A stretch of DNA of 64,000 nt from a filamentous cyanobacterium ESFC-1 (GTDB lineage Bacteria; Cyanobacteriota; Cyanobacteriia; Cyanobacteriales; Spirulinaceae): the NCBI GenBank assembly GCA_000380225.1, contig KB904821.1, positions 1-64,000 of the forward strand, read 5' to 3'. The translations under genes and the position numbers were made by a program. Every line of letters begins with the position of its first letter. Position 1 is the stretch's first letter. The notes under the pieces are model-generated. The model had not been told where the DNA came from. It ran no database searches and saw only the letters and a program-made list of their open reading frames with translations. Below, piece by piece: positions 11,794-62,513 of this stretch.

Positions 11794-14700
11794 TTAATCG
11801 TCTGGGTTCATTTGGTTGATAATTTGCATGGTTTGGACGGAAACGGTGCAGACGCGCATTAAAAGGTCAATGACTTTTTCTTTATAATCTGCGAATTTAT
11901 AGGTATTGAATTTCTCGCGGATGGTTGCGTCTCGCGGTTTCTTTTCTTTGTGTTGGTCGAGTATCCATTCGAGGGCGCTACGATTGCCGAGTTTATAGTC
12001 CCAAACAATGGCAGGAATGTTTTGTAGGGTGGTGATATTGTCGAGGGTAATTGTGTTTTTGGTTTTGTCGGCTTTGAGTTTGGGTTTGTTGAGTTTACCG
12101 GGTTTTAAGGGGATGTCAATGCGTTGCAGGGGATAGGGTTCGATGGTTTCGTAATTGAGGTGAAGTTCCATGAGTTGTTGTCCCCAGTTTGACCATTGCC
12201 AAAAGTCGTCATAAAAGGGTAAGCGGGGAAAGTCGCGTTTGAGGTTTTGTTCGTATTTTTGGCGGTATTGGGGGTTATGTAAAACGGCGTAAGTGTAGTG
12301 GAAGATGTCGATTTTTTGGATAGATGCCCTCACCCTAAATCCCTCTCCCACGGGAGAGGGACTTTGATTGGAAGCCCTCACTCTCAATTCTGCTTCTACG
12401 GGAGAGGGACTTTGATTGGAAGCCCTCACTCTCAATTCTGCTTCTACGGGAGAGGGGCTTGGGTTGGAAGCCCTCACCCTCAATTCTTCGTCCACGGGAG
12501 AGGGGCTTGGATGGGGTTGTGAAGTGGAGGAGGTTGCGTTTCCTGATTCTTCTCCCCTCTCCTGCGGGAGAGGGGTTGGGGGTGAGGGGATATCTAGGGC
12601 TGTGGCTATTAATTCTAAGGAGTCAATGAGGTTATCGGTAATGGCTTTGTTGGGAAAACGCAATACTCTGATATTGTGAGATTGTAGCCAAATTTCGCGA
12701 TCGCGATCGCGTTCTTGTTGCTGTTGGTGAATCTCTCCGTCTAACTCGATAACCAACTTCGCATCATGGCAGTAAAAATCAACAATGAACTGGCCAATGT
12801 TATGTTGTCGGCGGAATTTGGCATTATTCAATTGTCGGTTTCTTAAACATTGCCAAAGCAACTTTTCGGCATGGGTTTCGGTTTGACGCAACTCTTTTGC
12901 TTTTTGTAATAATACCCTCGGAATTGCCCGTCTCGCACCCGCAACTTCGCTAAATTCCGCAGCCGTTAAAGATGCCCTCACCCTCAATTCTTCGTCCACG
13001 GGAGAGGGACTTTGATTAGAAGATGCCCTCACCCTCAATTCTTCGTCCACGGGAGAGGGACTTTGATTAGAAGATGCCCTCACCCTCAATTCTTCGTCCA
13101 CGGGAGAGGGACTTTGATTAGAAGATGCCCTCACCCTCAATTCTTCGTCCACGGGAGAGGGTTTTTGATTAGAAGATGCCCTCACCCTAAATCCCTCTCC
13201 CACGGGAGAGGGACTTTGACTTTGACTTTGACTTTGGCTTTGATTGGGGTTTGGGGTGGAAGGGTGTGGGGAGTTGGGGAGAGTAGGGTCTGCTGATTCT
13301 TCCTCAGCAAAAACAGAACTTCCTTCTCCCCTCTCCCGTGGGAGAGGGGTTGGGGGTGAGGGCAAATAACGCTGACGAAACAACGCCAACGCCCAATCGG
13401 TAATATTATCTTGGCGGTTTCCCTCTTTGTCGTAGCGGTAGAGGGGGAGACATTGGGTTGCACGACCTCCAACATCTAAAGAAGGAATGGTATTAGTCGC
13501 TTGGACTAAAAACGGAATTTGTGTGTGATTAGTGACGGCAATGACCAAATTTTTAAATTGAGAAGATGGGAATAGACTAGGAATTTGATAAGTCATCCCG
13601 TTAAAATGCTTATCAAAATAAAGATATTTTTTGGTAAAAGGTCGATAAAGACTTTTTGTATTGCAGCTTTCGTTAAACTTCTTTTCAATCTTTCTTCCTA
13701 AATATTTTCTTAACTCACGATCCCATTTAATCTTATTTTTATCTAAATAATCCGGGTCTTTTAGTGTCGCTTGATAAGTTTCAACAAAAAACTCCATCTT
13801 TGCCGTTAACGACTCCTGAGAAAAATCATAAACCCATTCATCTCGATAAGTACCGACACCCCGTGAAAACAACTGAAAAACTGCCTCATCAGAACGTCCC
13901 GCTTTCACTTCCTTATCAATCAATGGTAACAACTCATCAAAATCATTATCCGTTAAATTAATCCAATTATGCTTTTTATCTGGTCGTATATGGTCAAAGG
14001 GTAAATCTTGTAATTTATTAGCCACAAAGTAAGCTTGCTTTTCTTCGGATTTAGCGTAATCAGCAAGGGCATTGTAGTAAACTTTAAATCCTTCTAGCTT
14101 TTCACTTCGGACTAAAAAATAAACTGCAATTCCTACCTTTATTTCATCATTAAAAACATTCCCACCTTCTTTGCGTCTTCGTTCGCCTGAATTTCTGGCA
14201 TTTCCTTTTGTATCAATCATCCAAATTTCATTAAATTCTTGTGCAATAACCTTGCGAAAACCATCAAAAGCAAATCCATCAATAAAAGACGAATTAGAAA
14301 CAAAAGCAATAACGCCATTCTTGCTAATCCTATCAGAAGCCCAACGAACAAAGCGCACATACATATCATAAAGTGCATTTTGATTCTGAGCCTTCCCTTG
14401 CTTTACATAAGTCCCACGAATCCGATTATCAATCGAACCATAAGCCCGATTCGCATTATTTTGATTAAAACTCTCTTGCCAGGCATTGTAAGGCGGATTG
14501 CCAATAATCACGGAAATTTCCCGGTCATTTTGACGATTAATCCGTTGGGTATTTTCCATCGTCATCGCAAACAAATCCATCTGTTTGTAATGATAAGACG
14601 TATGATCCAACGTATCCACTAAACAGATATTCTGAAACTCTTGATACTGTCCCATCTTCTGCTGATAGGTGTATTCAATATTCAAATTCGCAATGTAATA

Positions 14701-47537: not shown

Positions 47538-48098
47538 TTCAGTTATCAGCACCTCAGTAGAACGTTTTTCCGATAGTTTACTGGTTTTTTGTTGTTGGTT
47601 GTTGGTTGTTGGTTATTGGTTATTGGTTATTGGTGACAAGTTAAGGCGAAAAGCAGGATGTCAAGAAAACATAAAACCGTTATTGTAGGGGCGAGGTCTC
47701 CTCGCCCAATCTCAACTTGGGGGAAACCACGATGGGATGTTATTATCGCGTTGCTAAAACGTAAACTTGGACGGGGAAACCCCGCCCCTACGGAAACTTG
47801 ACAAAAACGATCTAACCTTAACTTGTCACGGTTGGTTATTGGTTGTTGGTTATTGGTTATTGGTTGTTGGTTGTTGGTTATTGGTTGTTGGTTGTTTGTA
47901 CCGTTTTCCCTAAATCCCTCAATTGGTAATTGGTAATTGGTAATTTCCTCCCACTCCTCCCCCTCCTCCCCCTCTTCCCCCTCTTCCCCCTCTTCCCCTA
48001 CTGCCCACTGCCCACTGCCCACTGCCCAAGAAAGCCGACTGCCCACTGCCCAAGAAAGCCGACTGCCCAAGAAAGCCGACTGCCCAAAAAACTGATTA
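47538..48098. repeat. Repeat-rich intergenic region upstream of fumC
   Basis: 560 bases without a gene. Contents: GGTTGTT/GGTTATT heptamers (47583-47634), a MITE-like 100-bp element with ends at 47694 and 47793, another heptamer block (47828-47942), a CTCCTCCC/CTCTTCC polypyrimidine run (47943-48000) and CTGCCCA/GAAAGCCGA repeats (48001-48090). Frames across it are simple-sequence artefacts. Confidence 0.85.
47694..47793. repeat. ~100-bp MITE-like element with palindromic ends
   Basis: The left end TGTAGGGGCGAGGTCTCC and right end (reverse complement) CGTAGGGGCGGGGTTTCC are inverted copies, and each arm is itself a short palindrome (AGG..CCT, GGGG..CCCC). Both arms continue into a CAACTTGG / AAACTTGG segment. 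Solo arms occur at 8311-8335, 24478-24505 and 38237-38260. Confidence 0.75.
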
Positions 48099-52780: not shown

Positions 52781-52918
52781 GGCGATTAAAACCGATTATT
52801 AATTATGGGCAGTGGAGTGGGCGCGATCGCGTTTCTCAAAACTGTATTTATGTCAACCAAACTTCTAAAAATTTATTATAATAGTTAACAAAGCTTAATA
52901 TTCTACGCAATTATAATC

Positions 52919-53584
52919 ATGCAAACAATCAAATACGAAACTTTCTTTCGGCGAAGCGCCACGTTTCTCGCCGTAGCAATCCTGACATTCGTGCTTCTGG
53001 CCGCCGGAACAGGCATTTTACTCGCCTATTACTACCAACCCGCCGCCGGAGGCGCTTATGAATCCCTCAGCCACATCAATAACACCGTTTCCTACGGTTG
53101 GTTTGTTCGCAGCGTCCACAACGTCGCGGGTAACGGCATCATCGTCGCAGCCTTAGTACAAATTATTGTTATGTTCCTAGGGCGGCAGTTACGTCCGAGT
53201 TGGTTTTTCGGTTGGGTGAGTGGCTTTTTACTCGCCCTCAACGCCATTGGTTTAGGCTGGACTGCTATGATCCTCAATTGGTCTCAAGAAGGCTTCTGGC
53301 GGCTCAAAATTGAACTCGCGACCCTGCAATCAATTCCTTTAATTGGTAACACCATCCGCGACATTCTCACCGGAGGCGGCGGCATTAATAGCGACACAGT
53401 AATGCACTTCTACACTCTCCACAGCTATGTTTTATCCTTGGGTGCAGTGCTTTTATCCGTCGTACATCTCGGTAGCTTAATTATCCAGAAGCGCGATCGC
53501 CGTCGTCAACTGGTCGAACAATTAGAACGATTAGTTCCCACCGCCGAAACCGAAGAAAGCGAAGCAGAAACAGTCGCTCAATAA
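52919..53584 (+). CDS. Cytochrome b6-like protein lacking one haem ligand
   Basis: 221 aa with four membrane helices and clear homology to the N-terminal cytochrome b fold (AYESLSHINNTVSYGWFVRSVHN, LHSYVLSLGAVLLSVVHLGSL). Counting from PetB, the histidines equivalent to His86, His187 and His202 are present, but the partner of His202 (His100) is Gln in VAALVQIIV. The protein has no cysteine, so the thioether of haem c_n is also absent. It therefore binds at most one complete b-haem pair plus a partial site. It is a paralogue, not the photosynthetic PetB. A strong terminator follows. Confidence 0.85.
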   Translation: MQTIKYETFFRRSATFLAVAILTFVLLAAGTGILLAYYYQPAAGGAYESLSHINNTVSYGWFVRSVHNVAGNGIIVAALVQIIVMFLGRQLRPSWFFGWVSGFLLALNAIGLGWTAMILNWSQEGFWRLKIELATLQSIPLIGNTIRDILTGGGGINSDTVMHFYTLHSYVLSLGAVLLSVVHLGSLIIQKRDRRRQLVEQLERLVPTAETEESEAETVAQ

Positions 53585-53616: not shown

Positions 53617-53641
53617 AAGGAGGCTTCGGCCTCCTTTTTTT
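53617..53641 (+). terminator. Intrinsic terminator after the cytochrome b6-like gene
   Basis: AAGGAGGC-TTCG-GCCTCCTT followed by a T-run. The TTCG tetraloop is typical of strong bacterial terminators. Confidence 0.95.
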
Positions 53642-55648: not shown

Positions 55649-55776
55649 GTTGGTTGTTGGTTGTTGGTTGTTGGTTGTTGGTTGTTGGTTGTTGGTTGTT
55701 GGTTGTTGGTTATTGGTTGTTGGTTGTTGGTTGTTGGTTGTTGGTTGTTGGTTGTTGGTTGTTGGTTGTTGGTTAT
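55649..55776. repeat. Long GGTTGTT heptamer array
   Basis: About 18 consecutive TTGGTTG units (one variant TTGGTTA). This is the longest STRR block in the window and begins four bases after the amidase stop. It is G/T-rich on the plus strand, unlike most other blocks, which are A/C-rich on the sense strand of a downstream gene. Confidence 0.9.
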
Positions 55777-56081: not shown

Positions 56082-59000
56082 ATGAGTCTCAAAATTGCCG
56101 ATTACGAAGTTTCAAAAGTAATTGCCGAAAGTGAAAACTCGATTGTCTATCAAGCCCGCGATCGCGATCGCGAGGTCGTCCTTAAAGTCTTTCGCCGGGA
56201 TTATCCCACCCCCCAAGACCTCAGCCGTTATCAAAACGAATATGAATTAGTGAGGTCTTTAAACATTCAAGGAGTCATCCAAGCCTACGAGATGATTCCG
56301 CATCAACGGGGGCGATCGCCTGCCACCATTGTTTTTGAAAGTTTTGGCGGGATGTCCCTCAAGCACATCTTAGCGGCTCGTCAAAACCAACCCTTTTCTG
56401 GGGCAGAATTTTTAAACATTGCCATTGAGATCACCCAAATTTTAGGGGAACTCCACAGCCAGCAAATCATTCACAAAGATATCAACCCCACCAACATCCT
56501 CTACAACCCAGACACCGAAAAAATCAAAATCATTGACTTTGGCATTGCCACCCGCAACCTACGTCAAGCCCCCAAGCGATCGCAAGTCGGGATTCTCGAA
56601 GGCACCTTAACTTATATTGCCCCCGAACAAACCGGTCGCATGAATCACAGCCTGGATTCTCGTAGCGATTTATATTCCCTCGGCATCACCTTTTATGAAT
56701 TGCTCACAGGTCAACCCCCCTTTTCCGGCACCACCCCCACCGAATTAATCCACGCCCACATCGCTCAACAGCCCCCACCGCCTCAACGCCAAAATCCAGA
56801 GATTCCGCCGCCCCTAGCTGGCATCATTCTGAAATTATTAGCCAAAAACCCTGAAGACCGCTACCAAAGCGCTTGGGGATTGCAGTTTGATTTGATTATC
56901 TGCCAAATGCAACTCGAAGCCACCGGAGAAATCAGCGATTTAACGCCGGGGGAAAACGATGTCTGCGAACAATTCCAACTGTCTCAAAAAATCTACGGTC
57001 GCGATGTCATCATCGAAGCTGTGCTGGCCCGTCTAACCCTGGCCATCAACCAAAGAAGTCCGCAACTGCTCTTAATCTCAGGCGCAACCGGGATAGGAAA
57101 AACCGCTTTCGGAAAAGCCCTAGAGCAAGCCATCACTGCTTATCAAGACGGCGCGACCTCGCCGCAATTTATCGCGGGTAAGTTTACCTCCCAAGGGAGA
57201 GCATTCGCTTATGGGATGTTCAAAAGTATGATTGCTGATTGGTTGCAGCAACTCCGATGGGAAACCCATCCCACCGGCCAGCAACGCTGCCAAAAACTGG
57301 TTCAGCGCTTAGGTTCGCGGGTGAATGCCCTCTCACAAATTTTTCCTGAATTAGCAGACTCATTCTCAGCCCTCCCCTCAACCCCCTTAGAAACCCGTCG
57401 CAGCCCTACTTTTGAAATCGAAGATTTATTGCCGATTTTGGGAGAAGTGCTAACTTCACCCCAGCAGCCTTTAGTCGTGTTTTTAGATAATCTGCAATGG
57501 GCCAACCGCCCCACAATCGAGATGATACAACGCTGGCTGTATCGTCCCCAGACTCAGCCTCAGTTTGTGTTATTGGTGGGAACCTATTGTCCAGAGGAAG
57601 TTCAGCCCCACTCTCCCTTTAGCCAATGGTCGGTGGCTGATTCCAAAGTTGGCAAAATGGTGTTACCGCCTCTGACCCTCGCGGACATCACGCAATGGTT
57701 AGTTGAGAGTTTTCGGGGTTCGCCGGACTCGATTCAACCCCTAGCCGCCCAAGTGCAACAAAAAACCCAAGGGTTTCCTTTTTTCGTGAAACAGTTTTTA
57801 AAGCGTCTGGTGCAAGATGGGTTGTTATTTTTTGACCGCAATACCTTAAGCTGGCAATGGGAGATAGAATCAATTAAACGCGAAGATTTGACCGAAAATG
57901 CCGTGGAATTAATCTTAGCTGAACTAAACCAGTTATCTCCTACGACTCAACAATTGCTCCAACAAGCGGCCTGTTTGGGAACCGAGTTTAATCTCACAGC
58001 TTTGGCAGCTTTGAGCAATCGTGAGACCGCCGATTTAGAGGGATATCTACAAGAAGCGATCGCGCTTTCGGTAATTATCCCCGTTAGCAACGGCGAAACC
58101 TTGACCTATGCGTTCAGCCACGACCGGATTCAGCAAAGTTTATACGACGGCTTCGACCCCCACTATGCCCTCAGCCTGCATTATCAAATTGGTCAGCGAT
58201 TGTTACAAGAATGGCAGCAGCAACCGCCGGAAGCTCAACCCGCAGTCGAGTCAGTTTTAGAGCATTTAAACCTGGTACTAGACCGCCTTACCCCAGCCGA
58301 GCGTTATGCCGTGGCGCGTCTGAACTATCAAGCCGCCCAAACTGCTCGTTCAACCCAAGCTGACGATCTGGCCCTCACTTATTACCAAGCGGGCTTAAAC
58401 CTACTCGATCGCTCCAGTTGGGAATCGGAATACAAATTTACCTGGACGCTGCACTTTGAAGCCTGGGAAATCGCCCAAATGCGGCGAGAAGCAGCTCTGG
58501 CGACGCAACTCTATACCCAACTGTGCGATCGCGCTCGTTCTCCCCAAGAGCAAGCAACGGTTTACATCCAGCAAATTCAACACCTCACCGCCAGCGAGCA
58601 ACCCCAACAAGCCCTAACCCTAGGCGATCGCGCTTTGGCGTTACTTCATCTCACTTTGCCCGAAACCACCTCCCTCGATCTCAGTCCCTTAAATTACCAA
58701 GCCTTAATTGCCTTTAGCCCCATTACTCAACCCCCTTTCCCCGACGAATATCTCGCCCTTCAGTATCAACTGCTGTCCCATTTACTCTTAGCCGCAAGTG
58801 ATGCCCAACCGCAACAAGTGGCTTTGATTTTGGCGAAAATGCAGCAAATTTGCGAAGAATCGTCCACCGTCTTGGGGTGTGCGGTTAACCAACATCAAAG
58901 CCTCCGCAGCGATCGCCTCAGAGCGATGTTTGAAACCAACCTCAACGGCGGCAATCGCAACTACAGCCGTTATACCCTGCTGGCTTATTGTGCCGCCAGC

Positions 59001-62000
59001 GTGCTATCGGGGCAACCCCTAGGCCAAGTGATCCCAGCTTTAACCAGCGCGATCGAAGCCGCCGAACAACAAGGCATTGCCACCAAGGGGGCCCGTTATT
59101 GGCTCCACCTAGCCGAACAACTCCACGCCCAACAACCCGCCCCGGCTTTTCAGGACTTACAAAGCCAAGCCCCCCTCTCGGTGCAGTTTTCTTATCATTT
59201 CACGCGGGGGTTGTGGTATTACTTTACCGACAACGCCGACCTCGCCCGGATTCACTGGCAACAAGCCGACCAAATTCGGCAACAGGGTTTGGTGTTTCCC
59301 GAAGACCACCAACTGAGCTTTTATCAAGCCCTGGCTGAATTTGCTTTATACCCCAATGCCTTGCCCGTCCAACAAGCCCACATTCGCTCGACGCTCTACC
59401 GCTTCACCGCCGAAGTCGAACGTTTGGCGGTACTGTATCCCGACGAATTTAGCCATCGCTACGACTTGATCGTGGCCGAACAGGGGCGGTTGAGCGATCG
59501 CCCTTGGGATGCAGTCCAAGCCTACGACCGCGCCATCGAACAAGCCAAAGAAGGGGGTTTTCTCCACGAAGAAGCCCAAAGCTGCGAACTGGCCGCCCAA
59601 TTTTATCGCGAACAGGGCATCAAGCGGTCGGCACAACTCTACGAGCGCGATTGTTATTATGCCTTGCAATACTGGCAAGGTTGGGCTAAACTGAGCCGAC
59701 CCGAGCGCGATCGCCCACCTCATCGGGCGATTCCCTACCAGATACAAAACCCCGAAACTCTCTCGGCTGCGGCTTTAGCTCAAACCGCTTCGGGGACTTA
59801 TAACAGTCCGACCTTAGATTTTGAGGCCGCCCTCGAAGCCTCGGGCGCGATCGCTTCAGAAATCATCCTCGAACGCTTGCTGGGCAAACTCATGGAGATT
59901 TTAATTGAAAATGTGGGCGCACAACGGGGTCATCTGTTGATGAATCACGATAACCGATGGCAGATTGAAGCTTCGAGTATCATTCAAGGGGCTGTAACGG
60001 TTTCTGAACCCATCGAGCAATGCGTTTCTCTCAAAGTCGTTGAATATGTCGCCCAGACTCAAAAAGCCTTGGTTTGTGACGAAGCCACGCAAGACTTGAA
60101 AGATTTTAACGACCCTTATCTGCAACAACACCAACCGCGATCGCTTCTATGTGCGCCCCTGATTAATCAAGGTCATCTCGAAGGCATTATTTACCTAGAA
60201 AATAACCTGGCGAATGGCGCATTTACCGCCGAACGCCTCGAACTCACCCGTTTTTTGGCAGCCCAAGCGGCCATTGCCATTGCTAACGCTCGTTTATACG
60301 CCACTACCAAGGAAGGGGAAAACCGCCTCAACCAAATTATTAACGCCATGCCAGTTGGGGTGTTTGTGATCGATCGTCCAGCCCAAGCCCCCTATATCAA
60401 CGCCTGTGGCCGCGAGTTATTAGTCGGGAACAGCAACATTCCCCCCGAAACCTTGGTACGAGACAATCCCGCCCTCAATCACTTAGTCATGCAAGCCCTC
60501 CAAGGTCAAAGCATCCATACCGACACTATCGAACTGCAATACACCGATTCGCCTTTGCCCCTGGAAGCTTGGGGAACGCCGATTTATGACCGGGAAGGTA
60601 ATGTCCAGTATGCGATCTTGACCTTTAGCGATATTCGCGATCGCAAACAAAGCGAAAAACTAATCGCTGACTACAACCGCACCCTGGAAACTCAAGTGCG
60701 AGAGCGTACCGAAGCCCTAGGACAAAGTGAAGCCCAAAATCGTGCGTTACTTGCGGCCATTCCCGATTTGTTATTCCGTATCAACAAAGATGGTACTTAT
60801 GTTGGCTATGTCAGCACCCGCAAAGCCTTTGATTTGTTACCCCCCGGTTACGACCCCGTGGGCTGTCATATTAGCGAATACTTGCCCCCGGATGTGGCGC
60901 AACGGCAACTCAATGTTATCGACCAAGTGTTAACTCATAAAGAAACTTGCATTTACGAGCAAAGCTTCGAGCAAGATGGGGTGACGGTGTACGAAGAAGT
61001 GCGAGTGGTTCAGAGTGGTGAGAATGAAGTGTTGTTCATGGTGCGCGATATTAGCGATCGCAAACGGGCCGAAGAAGCCCTGCGCTTGTCTGAAGAAAAG
61101 TTCTCGAAAGCCTTTCGTTCTAGCCCCAGCAGCATCACCATCACATCCCTCGATGACGGTAAACACCTCGAAGCCAATGAAACCTTTTGTCAGATGATTG
61201 GTTACAGTGTCGAGGAAATTATCGGTCGGACGGCGGTGGACTTAAATCTCTGGGTCAATAGCGAAGACCGTCACAATTTATTTATGGCGTTGCAAAATAA
61301 TAACGTGATTCGTAACTACGAGTTTGCTTTTAAAACCAAATCTGGCGATGTTCGCAACGCCTTACTGTCTGCCGAACGGATTAATATTAACGGCCAAGCC
61401 TGTTTGCTGTCTTTGTCCAATGATATTAGCGATCGCGTCCAAGCCGAAGCCGCCCTGCGCCAAAAAAACCAAGAACTCGAACTCGCCCTCGACCAACTAC
61501 AAACGGCGCAAACCGAGTTAATTCAAGCCGAGAAGATGGCGGTTTTGGGTCAGTTGATTGCCGGAGTCGCCCACGAAATTAACACGCCCCTGGGGGCAAT
61601 TCGCGCCGCCGCCAGCAACACCGCCCAAGCCCTCCAAGAATCCTTGTCCCAACTGCCGGATTTAGTACAGCGCCTTTCCCCGACCCAACAACAACAGTTT
61701 TTCGACCTGATCCAAAAATCTGTCAGCAATCAGAAGAAACTCACCGCCCGCGAACAACGCACCGCCAAGCGATCGCTGGCGAAAGTTCTCAAAACCGCCA
61801 ATATTGAAAGTTCCCGCCGTTTTGCTGATACTCTTATTGATATGGGGATTTATGACAACATCGAGCCTCATCTCGCCTTGTTTCAAACGGCTGCCAGCGA
61901 TTGGATTTTACAACTGGCGTATAATCTCACCCGACTTCAGCGCAACAGTCGCACCATTCTCACCGCCATCGAACGAGCTGCCAAAGTGGTGTTTGCCCTG

Positions 62001-62513
62001 AAGACCTACGCTCACCAATCCAGTAGCGATCGCAAAGAAGTGGCACAAGTGACCCACAGCATTGAAACGGTGTTGGAATTGTATTACAACCAACTCAAAA
62101 AAGGGGTAGAAGTCAATCGCGATTATCAAGAAGTCCCGCCCATTCCTTGTTATCCTGACGAACTGATGCAAGTCTGGACAAATTTAATTCATAATGCTTT
62201 GCAAGCGATGAATTATCAAGGTACATTAGATATCCGTGTTTTCCCGGAAGGAAATGATCTCGCTGTGGCAATTTCAGATTCGGGTTGTGGTATTTCCGAT
62301 GAACTCAAAGCTAAAATATTTGAACCCTTTTTTACAACAAAAGCAGCAGGAGAAGGCAGTGGCTTAGGATTAGATATTGTGCATAAAATCGTCAAAAAAC
62401 ACGAAGGACGCATTGATTTAACCAGTCAACCCGGACAAACAACGTTTACTGTTTGGTTACCCATTAATGATACCGACTCCCCTTCAATTTTGCCGGAATC
62501 TCCGACTACCTAG
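56082..62513 (+). CDS. HstK-type multidomain kinase (Ser/Thr kinase, ATPase, GAF, PAS, histidine kinase)
   Basis: 2143 aa. Order: Ser/Thr kinase (1-270; Lys in VVLKVFRRD, catalytic HKDINPTN, DFG in IIDFGIA, APE in IAPEQ); AAA-type ATPase module with P-loop SGATGIGKTAFGK (~333) and Walker B LVVFLDNLQW; ~700 residues of TPR-like helices; GAF (~1255-1405); three PAS-like domains (~1430-1790); HisKA with GVAHEINTPLG (~1829); a ~110-residue insertion; HATPase with NLIHNALQAM and SDSGCGISDE/GEGSGLGLDIV. All catalytic residues of both kinase modules are present. HstK proteins are linked to heterocyst, metal or stress signalling in other cyanobacteria; the stimulus here is unknown. The adjacent receiver is the probable partner. 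Confidence 0.95.
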   Translation: MSLKIADYEVSKVIAESENSIVYQARDRDREVVLKVFRRDYPTPQDLSRYQNEYELVRSLNIQGVIQAYEMIPHQRGRSPATIVFESFGGMSLKHILAARQNQPFSGAEFLNIAIEITQILGELHSQQIIHKDINPTNILYNPDTEKIKIIDFGIATRNLRQAPKRSQVGILEGTLTYIAPEQTGRMNHSLDSRSDLYSLGITFYELLTGQPPFSGTTPTELIHAHIAQQPPPPQRQNPEIPPPLAGIILKLLAKNPEDRYQSAWGLQFDLIICQMQLEATGEISDLTPGENDVCEQFQLSQKIYGRDVIIEAVLARLTLAINQRSPQLLLISGATGIGKTAFGKALEQAITAYQDGATSPQFIAGKFTSQGRAFAYGMFKSMIADWLQQLRWETHPTGQQRCQKLVQRLGSRVNALSQIFPELADSFSALPSTPLETRRSPTFEIEDLLPILGEVLTSPQQPLVVFLDNLQWANRPTIEMIQRWLYRPQTQPQFVLLVGTYCPEEVQPHSPFSQWSVADSKVGKMVLPPLTLADITQWLVESFRGSPDSIQPLAAQVQQKTQGFPFFVKQFLKRLVQDGLLFFDRNTLSWQWEIESIKREDLTENAVELILAELNQLSPTTQQLLQQAACLGTEFNLTALAALSNRETADLEGYLQEAIALSVIIPVSNGETLTYAFSHDRIQQSLYDGFDPHYALSLHYQIGQRLLQEWQQQPPEAQPAVESVLEHLNLVLDRLTPAERYAVARLNYQAAQTARSTQADDLALTYYQAGLNLLDRSSWESEYKFTWTLHFEAWEIAQMRREAALATQLYTQLCDRARSPQEQATVYIQQIQHLTASEQPQQALTLGDRALALLHLTLPETTSLDLSPLNYQALIAFSPITQPPFPDEYLALQYQLLSHLLLAASDAQPQQVALILAKMQQICEESSTVLGCAVNQHQSLRSDRLRAMFETNLNGGNRNYSRYTLLAYCAASVLSGQPLGQVIPALTSAIEAAEQQGIATKGARYWLHLAEQLHAQQPAPAFQDLQSQAPLSVQFSYHFTRGLWYYFTDNADLARIHWQQADQIRQQGLVFPEDHQLSFYQALAEFALYPNALPVQQAHIRSTLYRFTAEVERLAVLYPDEFSHRYDLIVAEQGRLSDRPWDAVQAYDRAIEQAKEGGFLHEEAQSCELAAQFYREQGIKRSAQLYERDCYYALQYWQGWAKLSRPERDRPPHRAIPYQIQNPETLSAAALAQTASGTYNSPTLDFEAALEASGAIASEIILERLLGKLMEILIENVGAQRGHLLMNHDNRWQIEASSIIQGAVTVSEPIEQCVSLKVVEYVAQTQKALVCDEATQDLKDFNDPYLQQHQPRSLLCAPLINQGHLEGIIYLENNLANGAFTAERLELTRFLAAQAAIAIANARLYATTKEGENRLNQIINAMPVGVFVIDRPAQAPYINACGRELLVGNSNIPPETLVRDNPALNHLVMQALQGQSIHTDTIELQYTDSPLPLEAWGTPIYDREGNVQYAILTFSDIRDRKQSEKLIADYNRTLETQVRERTEALGQSEAQNRALLAAIPDLLFRINKDGTYVGYVSTRKAFDLLPPGYDPVGCHISEYLPPDVAQRQLNVIDQVLTHKETCIYEQSFEQDGVTVYEEVRVVQSGENEVLFMVRDISDRKRAEEALRLSEEKFSKAFRSSPSSITITSLDDGKHLEANETFCQMIGYSVEEIIGRTAVDLNLWVNSEDRHNLFMALQNNNVIRNYEFAFKTKSGDVRNALLSAERININGQACLLSLSNDISDRVQAEAALRQKNQELELALDQLQTAQTELIQAEKMAVLGQLIAGVAHEINTPLGAIRAAASNTAQALQESLSQLPDLVQRLSPTQQQQFFDLIQKSVSNQKKLTAREQRTAKRSLAKVLKTANIESSRRFADTLIDMGIYDNIEPHLALFQTAASDWILQLAYNLTRLQRNSRTILTAIERAAKVVFALKTYAHQSSSDRKEVAQVTHSIETVLELYYNQLKKGVEVNRDYQEVPPIPCYPDELMQVWTNLIHNALQAMNYQGTLDIRVFPEGNDLAVAISDSGCGISDELKAKIFEPFFTTKAAGEGSGLGLDIVHKIVKKHEGRIDLTSQPGQTTFTVWLPINDTDSPSILPESPTT

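Follow-up and report, generated by a model that had tools for sequence, protein, structure and literature searches.

The window, the whole 64,000-nucleotide stretch of DNA from the filamentous cyanobacterium ESFC-1 analysed here, contains a gene for a paralogue of cytochrome b6, named b6L here (Table 1). On its upstream side lies the gene of a CHASE3 chemotaxis receptor, on its downstream side that of an AMIN-amidase. A weak promoter-like match precedes the gene. The terminator-like hairpin with a T run just 3' of it suggests that transcription would end there, and b6L is on this account probably its own transcription unit. The canonical petB and petD of the host genome (5.6 Mb) lie elsewhere on the same contig, at 3.577-3.579 Mb, and its nine Rieske matches all fall outside the window; a scan of every frame of the window gave neither a Rieske motif nor PEWY. 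Elsewhere in the window there are intergenic seven-base tandem repeats (GTTGGTT and similar) of up to 18 copies with adjoining 9-base arrays (47831-47896, 55649-55774 and others), as well as 48- and 51-base tandem repeats which are 93-95% identical (12350-12512 and 12969-13219). Positions 56082-62513 encode a protein of 2143 amino acids resembling a fusion of kinase, AAA, GAF, PAS and histidine-kinase domains, as judged by eye.

Table 1. Coordinates of b6L and its features in the window, and of genes adjoining b6L in other cyanobacteria
Feature	Position	Strand	Remarks
Sigma-70-like promoter match, upstream of b6L	52850..52879	+	Weak (9/12); pattern only
b6L gene	52919..53584	+	ATG start, TAA stop, 221 aa; cytochrome b6 paralogue
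Helix A (transmembrane), residues 2-36	52922..53026	+	Limits from AlphaFold2 model
Helix B, residues 60-87	53096..53179	+	His67 (PetB His86), Gln81 (PetB His100), Val84 (PetB Arg103)
His67 codon	53117..53119	+	p-side haem b_p ligand; His 107/108, Tyr 1/108
Gln81 codon (CAA)	53159..53161	+	PetB His100 position; Gln 99, Glu 8, Ala 1 of 108
Helix C, residues 93-119	53195..53275	+	Model and alignment
p-side helix cd1, residues 123-137	53285..53329	+	Model and alignment
p-side helix cd2, residues 143-151	53345..53371	+	Arg147 in 97/108; PetB has Val166
Helix D, residues 158-205	53390..53533	+	His168 (PetB His187, b_p ligand; His 103/108, Asn 5/108), His183 (PetB His202; His 103/108, Asn 5/108)
Intrinsic-terminator-like hairpin with T run, just 3' of b6L	53617..53636	+	Pattern only
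petD2, directly upstream of b6L, Chamaesiphon	L111:8868-9353, L107:1799-2275, L222:1501-1983
Ketolase-like gene, downstream of b6L, Pleurocapsales	L032:9468-10253, L037, L050, L051, L052

The b6L protein matches the superfamily profile PF00033 (Pfam Cytochrome_B) at 92 bits (cut-off 27.2) and the Cytochrom_B_N_2 profile at 53 bits. To judge from an E value of 6e-27 against solved PetB chains, its resemblance to PetB is far above the chance level; the identity is 29% to the PetB of its own genome (28-30% to PetB). It scores below the cut-off of the curated NCBIfam cytochrome b6 model PRK03735 (108.6 bits, cut-off 325), and the features of PetB which it lacks are one of the four haem histidines, Cys35 for covalent haem c_n, the N-terminal segment, the C-terminal end and, outside Chamaesiphon, an adjoining petD. 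The best NCBIfam match is to ExtP, the b-type cytochrome of the selenite/tellurite reduction operons (NF040969), again far below the cut-off (114.6 bits, cut-off 290), and b6L does not lie in such an operon. An AlphaFold2 model built on 55 members of the b6L family (mean pLDDT 93.2, pTM 0.85) predicts that the four-helix fold of PetB is kept. The model matches Synechocystis PetB (7r0w_A) over 187 residues at 2.3 Å (Z 20.4), and Foldseek gave an E value of 6e-10 against PetB. Every one of the closest solved structures is a PetB, with bc1 cytochrome b coming next.

In a gap-free alignment His67, Gln81, His168 and His183 of b6L correspond to His86, His100, His187 and His202 of PetB, with the spacing His67-x13-Gln81 and His168-x14-His183. 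The two proteins have in common the haem b_p ligands (PetB His86 and His187) and, in the loop on the p-side (lumen or periplasm), the PetB residues Trp140, Gln142, Gly144, Trp146, Pro159 and Gly162. His100 and His202 are the haem b_n ligands of PetB (PMC5730185). The sequence-only reading had described a b6 paralogue with PetB spacing, Gln for the second helix-B histidine and no Cys, and all of this is seen in the window protein, in which the number of Cys residues is zero.

Homologs of b6L occur at E < 1e-30 in 79 of 388 cyanobacterial genomes of the class, or about one in five, and 217 stretches encoding them were collected from a genome collection; the residue counts given here rest on 108 distinct b6L proteins and 41 distinct PetB. 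The earlier reading had proposed alignment with PetB and a check of the Gln in orthologues. When this was done none of the 108 proteins was found to keep His at the PetB His100 position, so the reading stands, and a sequencing error or local substitution is rejected because every member has Gln, Glu or Ala there. The Glu form (Ala once) belongs to L034, L035, L036, L040, L041, L049, L068, L077 and L109; Glu forms include second copies, and two genomes (G023 and G050) have two b6L copies each, both of the Glu/Ala type. In the tree b6L is monophyletic against PetB with a support of 100/100 and a very long branch between them. The median dN/dS over 379 b6L pairs is 0.11, indicating purifying selection, and it is 0.114 over pairs taking in six of the ten haem-ligand variants. 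The want of His at the His100 position, the fully supported separation from PetB and the low dN/dS together mark an old family maintained by selection, yet one that is patchy and sometimes broken. Copies with a split frame or in-frame stop were found at L048:8926-9539 (genome G022) and in G207, G260, G067, G235 and G201, which is consistent with sporadic loss; for the family as a whole a pseudogene is rejected on the dN/dS value. A plasmid or phage gene was also rejected: phage sequences gave no match, and plasmids a single distant one (28.7%).

The loss in b6L extends beyond a single ligand. Seven positions invariant in the 41 PetB (Cys35, Gly37, His100, Arg103, Arg114, Arg207 and Lys208) are all replaced. 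Cys35, on helix A, has no counterpart in the window protein and no Cys stands at its place in any of the 108 proteins; Gly37 is Ala in the window protein and Ser or Ala across the family; Arg103 is replaced by Val; Arg114 by Trp95 of helix C in 108/108; and on helix D hydrophobic residues stand for Arg207 (Leu, Val or Ile) and Lys208 (Trp, Phe or Leu). By homology we take Arg103 and Arg114 of PetB to face b_n. Asp20 and Lys24 of PetB are likewise missing. Solved b6f structures show the propionate of haem c_n held by Arg207 (Arg214 in Synechocystis) and the proton path on the n-side (cytoplasmic side) lined by this residue and Asp20 (PMC9342900, PMC9162462). With n-side and p-side boundaries set by hand, 22 of the 83 p-side positions conserved in PetB persist in 90% or more of b6L, vs 6 of 66 on the n-side (Fisher p = 0.01). 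The p-side features retained include much of the cd1/cd2 region, with Gln123, Gly125 and Trp127 of cd1 kept from PetB, and both p-side histidines in 102 of the 108 proteins, at least one being present in all. PetB Gly51 is kept on helix A as Gly32, and Trp114 of helix C is invariant. New to the family are the cd1 invariants Arg128 (PetB Ala147) and Glu132 (PetB Val151). The p-side site is altered too, Gly135 near haem b_p having become Ala (Ala116) and Arg83 being variable.

Judged by these residues, the n-side site that would house haems b_n and c_n appears to be wholly lost; the earlier statement that one b-haem ligand is missing is right for Gln81 and too narrow for the site. Ligation of haem b_n by Gln is for this reason unlikely as the main reading. 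The protein most likely binds one haem, b_p, and the family pattern agrees with the earlier proposal of a modified membrane protein with one intact haem site, although we infer its haem content, quinone binding and any pairing with PetD. His183 is retained in 103 of the 108 though its partner ligand is lost, and it may be structural or bind another cofactor; five members (Gln81/Asn183) have no histidine of the n-side pair at all. The ligand variants belong to the Nostocales: His168Asn in L091, L112, L079, L126 and L078, His183Asn in L122, L083, L103, L100 and L108, and His67Tyr in L108. From their scatter in the tree, read by eye, each of the two Asn changes seems to have arisen at least twice. 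Homologous ligand losses are known from the bc1 mutants H212N (n-side) and H198N (p-side), to which the natural His183Asn and His168Asn correspond (PMC4330944, PMC8138165). Those are laboratory changes in a complete bc1, whereas b6L is a natural family in which the opposite n-side ligand, that on helix B, has been lost.

The neighbours of b6L vary between genomes. A PGAP1-like alpha/beta hydrolase gene lies upstream at 53 of 108 distinct loci in several orders, with a median gap of 102 bp; it was rejected as an obligate partner, being common in genomes without b6L. A convergent cation/proton antiporter is found at 54 loci, and an FAD enzyme follows b6L at one. In the Pleurocapsales, whose b6L are the nearest tree relatives of the window gene with weak support (94/56), a di-iron membrane enzyme of the FA_desaturase family (Pfam), which we read as carotenoid-ketolase-like, is encoded directly 3' at distances of -13 to +97 bp. 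It too was rejected as a general partner, the window genome having no close homolog. Some 3-5 kb upstream of b6L, psbV, petE (plastocyanin) and petJ (cytochrome c6)-like genes are present at about 30-35 loci of the Nostocales (e.g. L102:4899-6650); with an opposing gene between them and b6L this linkage was set aside as neighbourhood only. Outside Chamaesiphon no Rieske, cytochrome f or PEWY gene was found within a few kb of the b6L loci. The exception is one Microcoleus-type locus with two Rieske-motif genes 5-6 kb away.

That neither petD nor a Rieske gene adjoins b6L, as claimed from the sequence, is correct for the window; in three Chamaesiphon genomes, on the other hand, a petD-type gene (PetD2) ends 9-12 bp before b6L, the order petD-b6L being the reverse of petB-petD. 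Each of the three also has a canonical petD. PetD2 scores 61 bits with the Pfam profile Cytochrom_B_C and is approximately 50% identical to PetD (subunit IV), with which it shares PEWY and the EF loop; the N-terminal segment has diverged and the sequence conservation of the FG loop is lost. Of the positions conserved in PetD, again divided by hand-set boundaries, 33 of 48 on the p-side are kept vs 14 of 62 on the n-side (p = 2e-6). This matching one-sided loss in b6L and PetD2, whose subunit types interact, is the strongest sign of what would be a pair acting at the p-side quinol site. No dedicated PetD for b6L was found outside Chamaesiphon in the 388 genomes; a general one was rejected, and where a few genomes with b6L (e.g. 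G050) have a second PetD, it looks canonical.

Our best explanation, in which belief and doubt are evenly balanced, is that b6L is an ancient selected paralogue cut down to the p-side half of cytochrome b6, a p-side quinol/haem b_p device without a Q cycle. The bis-histidine haem b_p site would be kept in nearly all members, the n-side b_n/c_n and quinone sites having been lost. With one b haem only there would be no electron path across the membrane, and b6L could therefore not run a proton-pumping Q cycle. It would work at the Qp site with a PetD-type subunit, which in Chamaesiphon would be its own; in other genomes it would use the canonical PetD or act without a partner. Haem b_p, in electron exchange with plastoquinol or semiquinone, would either deliver the electrons to a different acceptor on the p-side or signal the redox state of the pool, no protons being pumped. 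A precedent is the order of haem binding in cytochrome b6 on its own, which takes up b_L first (PMC5730185). Several findings count against this explanation: the persistence of His183, which leaves room for something bound in the n-side pocket; the dedicated PetD restricted to Chamaesiphon, so that PetD pairing is not general; the want of a linked acceptor gene in most genomes; and the alterations to the p-side site itself, including the five Nostocales with His168Asn. We put forward only tentatively, as rather less than probable, that b6L and a PetD-type subunit form a natural stand-alone quinol device with haem b_p and Qp alone, alongside the normal b6f.

The PetB fold of b6L, and the presence in most b6L genomes of only a canonical petD which could be shared, would also suit a mixed dimer in which b6L substitutes for PetB in one half of b6f, leaving a single transmembrane branch via a b_p-b_p bridge, and expression of which tunes or parks b6f. 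This rival, though in our estimate unlikely, should be taken seriously because bc1 dimers engineered to carry H212N in one half still assemble, and in them electrons move from one b_L haem to the other within milliseconds (PMC4330944). Set against it are the low identity to PetB, the missing terminal regions, and the supply of a separate PetD in Chamaesiphon. Furthermore, the new residues Arg128, Glu132 and Arg147 of b6L fall in the cd1/cd2 p-side region, which in PetB adjoins the Rieske protein. That region bears also on whether b6L instead carries electrons in the membrane to enzymes that modify lipids or isoprenoids, in the manner of cytochrome b5, and is not a quinol oxidase, since the conserved features of the region would then not be needed. 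The ketolase-like, hydrolase and FAD-enzyme neighbours all speak for such a carrier, but with the first limited to one clade and the second so common without b6L we regard this as quite improbable.

The retention of His183 invites another interpretation, namely that the n-side site holds a second haem or pigment on this residue alone with Gln/Glu81 beside it, either a five-coordinate, ligand-binding b_n or a chlorophyll. In R. capsulatus bc1 a haem does outlast a ligand: on changing His to Asn at haem b_L (H198N, equivalent to His168Asn of b6L) it stays and turns high-spin and high-potential (PMC8138165). Against this, every PetB-invariant charged n-side residue has gone as well, and purifying selection is undisturbed by the five members without His183; we consider such a cofactor distinctly unlikely. 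The natural His168Asn (five) and His67Tyr (one) variants, with dN/dS still near 0.11, speak for a further reading, in which b6L is a PetB derivative with a non-redox role in assembly, sensing or structure and its haem is dispensable. A p-side histidine in all members, and both in nearly all, makes this very unlikely.

No description of the b6L family was found in the open-access papers searched. In bc1 and b6f, cytochrome b is the textbook transmembrane wire of two haems. That a widespread family under selection has had one end of this wire removed implies that the p-side half is useful by itself, and it would make b6L a natural counterpart of the laboratory haem-knockout mutants and a means of testing how far haem b_p and Qp can function without a Q cycle. 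In many cyanobacteria, many Nostocales included, b6L may represent an unrecognised branch point on the plastoquinone pool.
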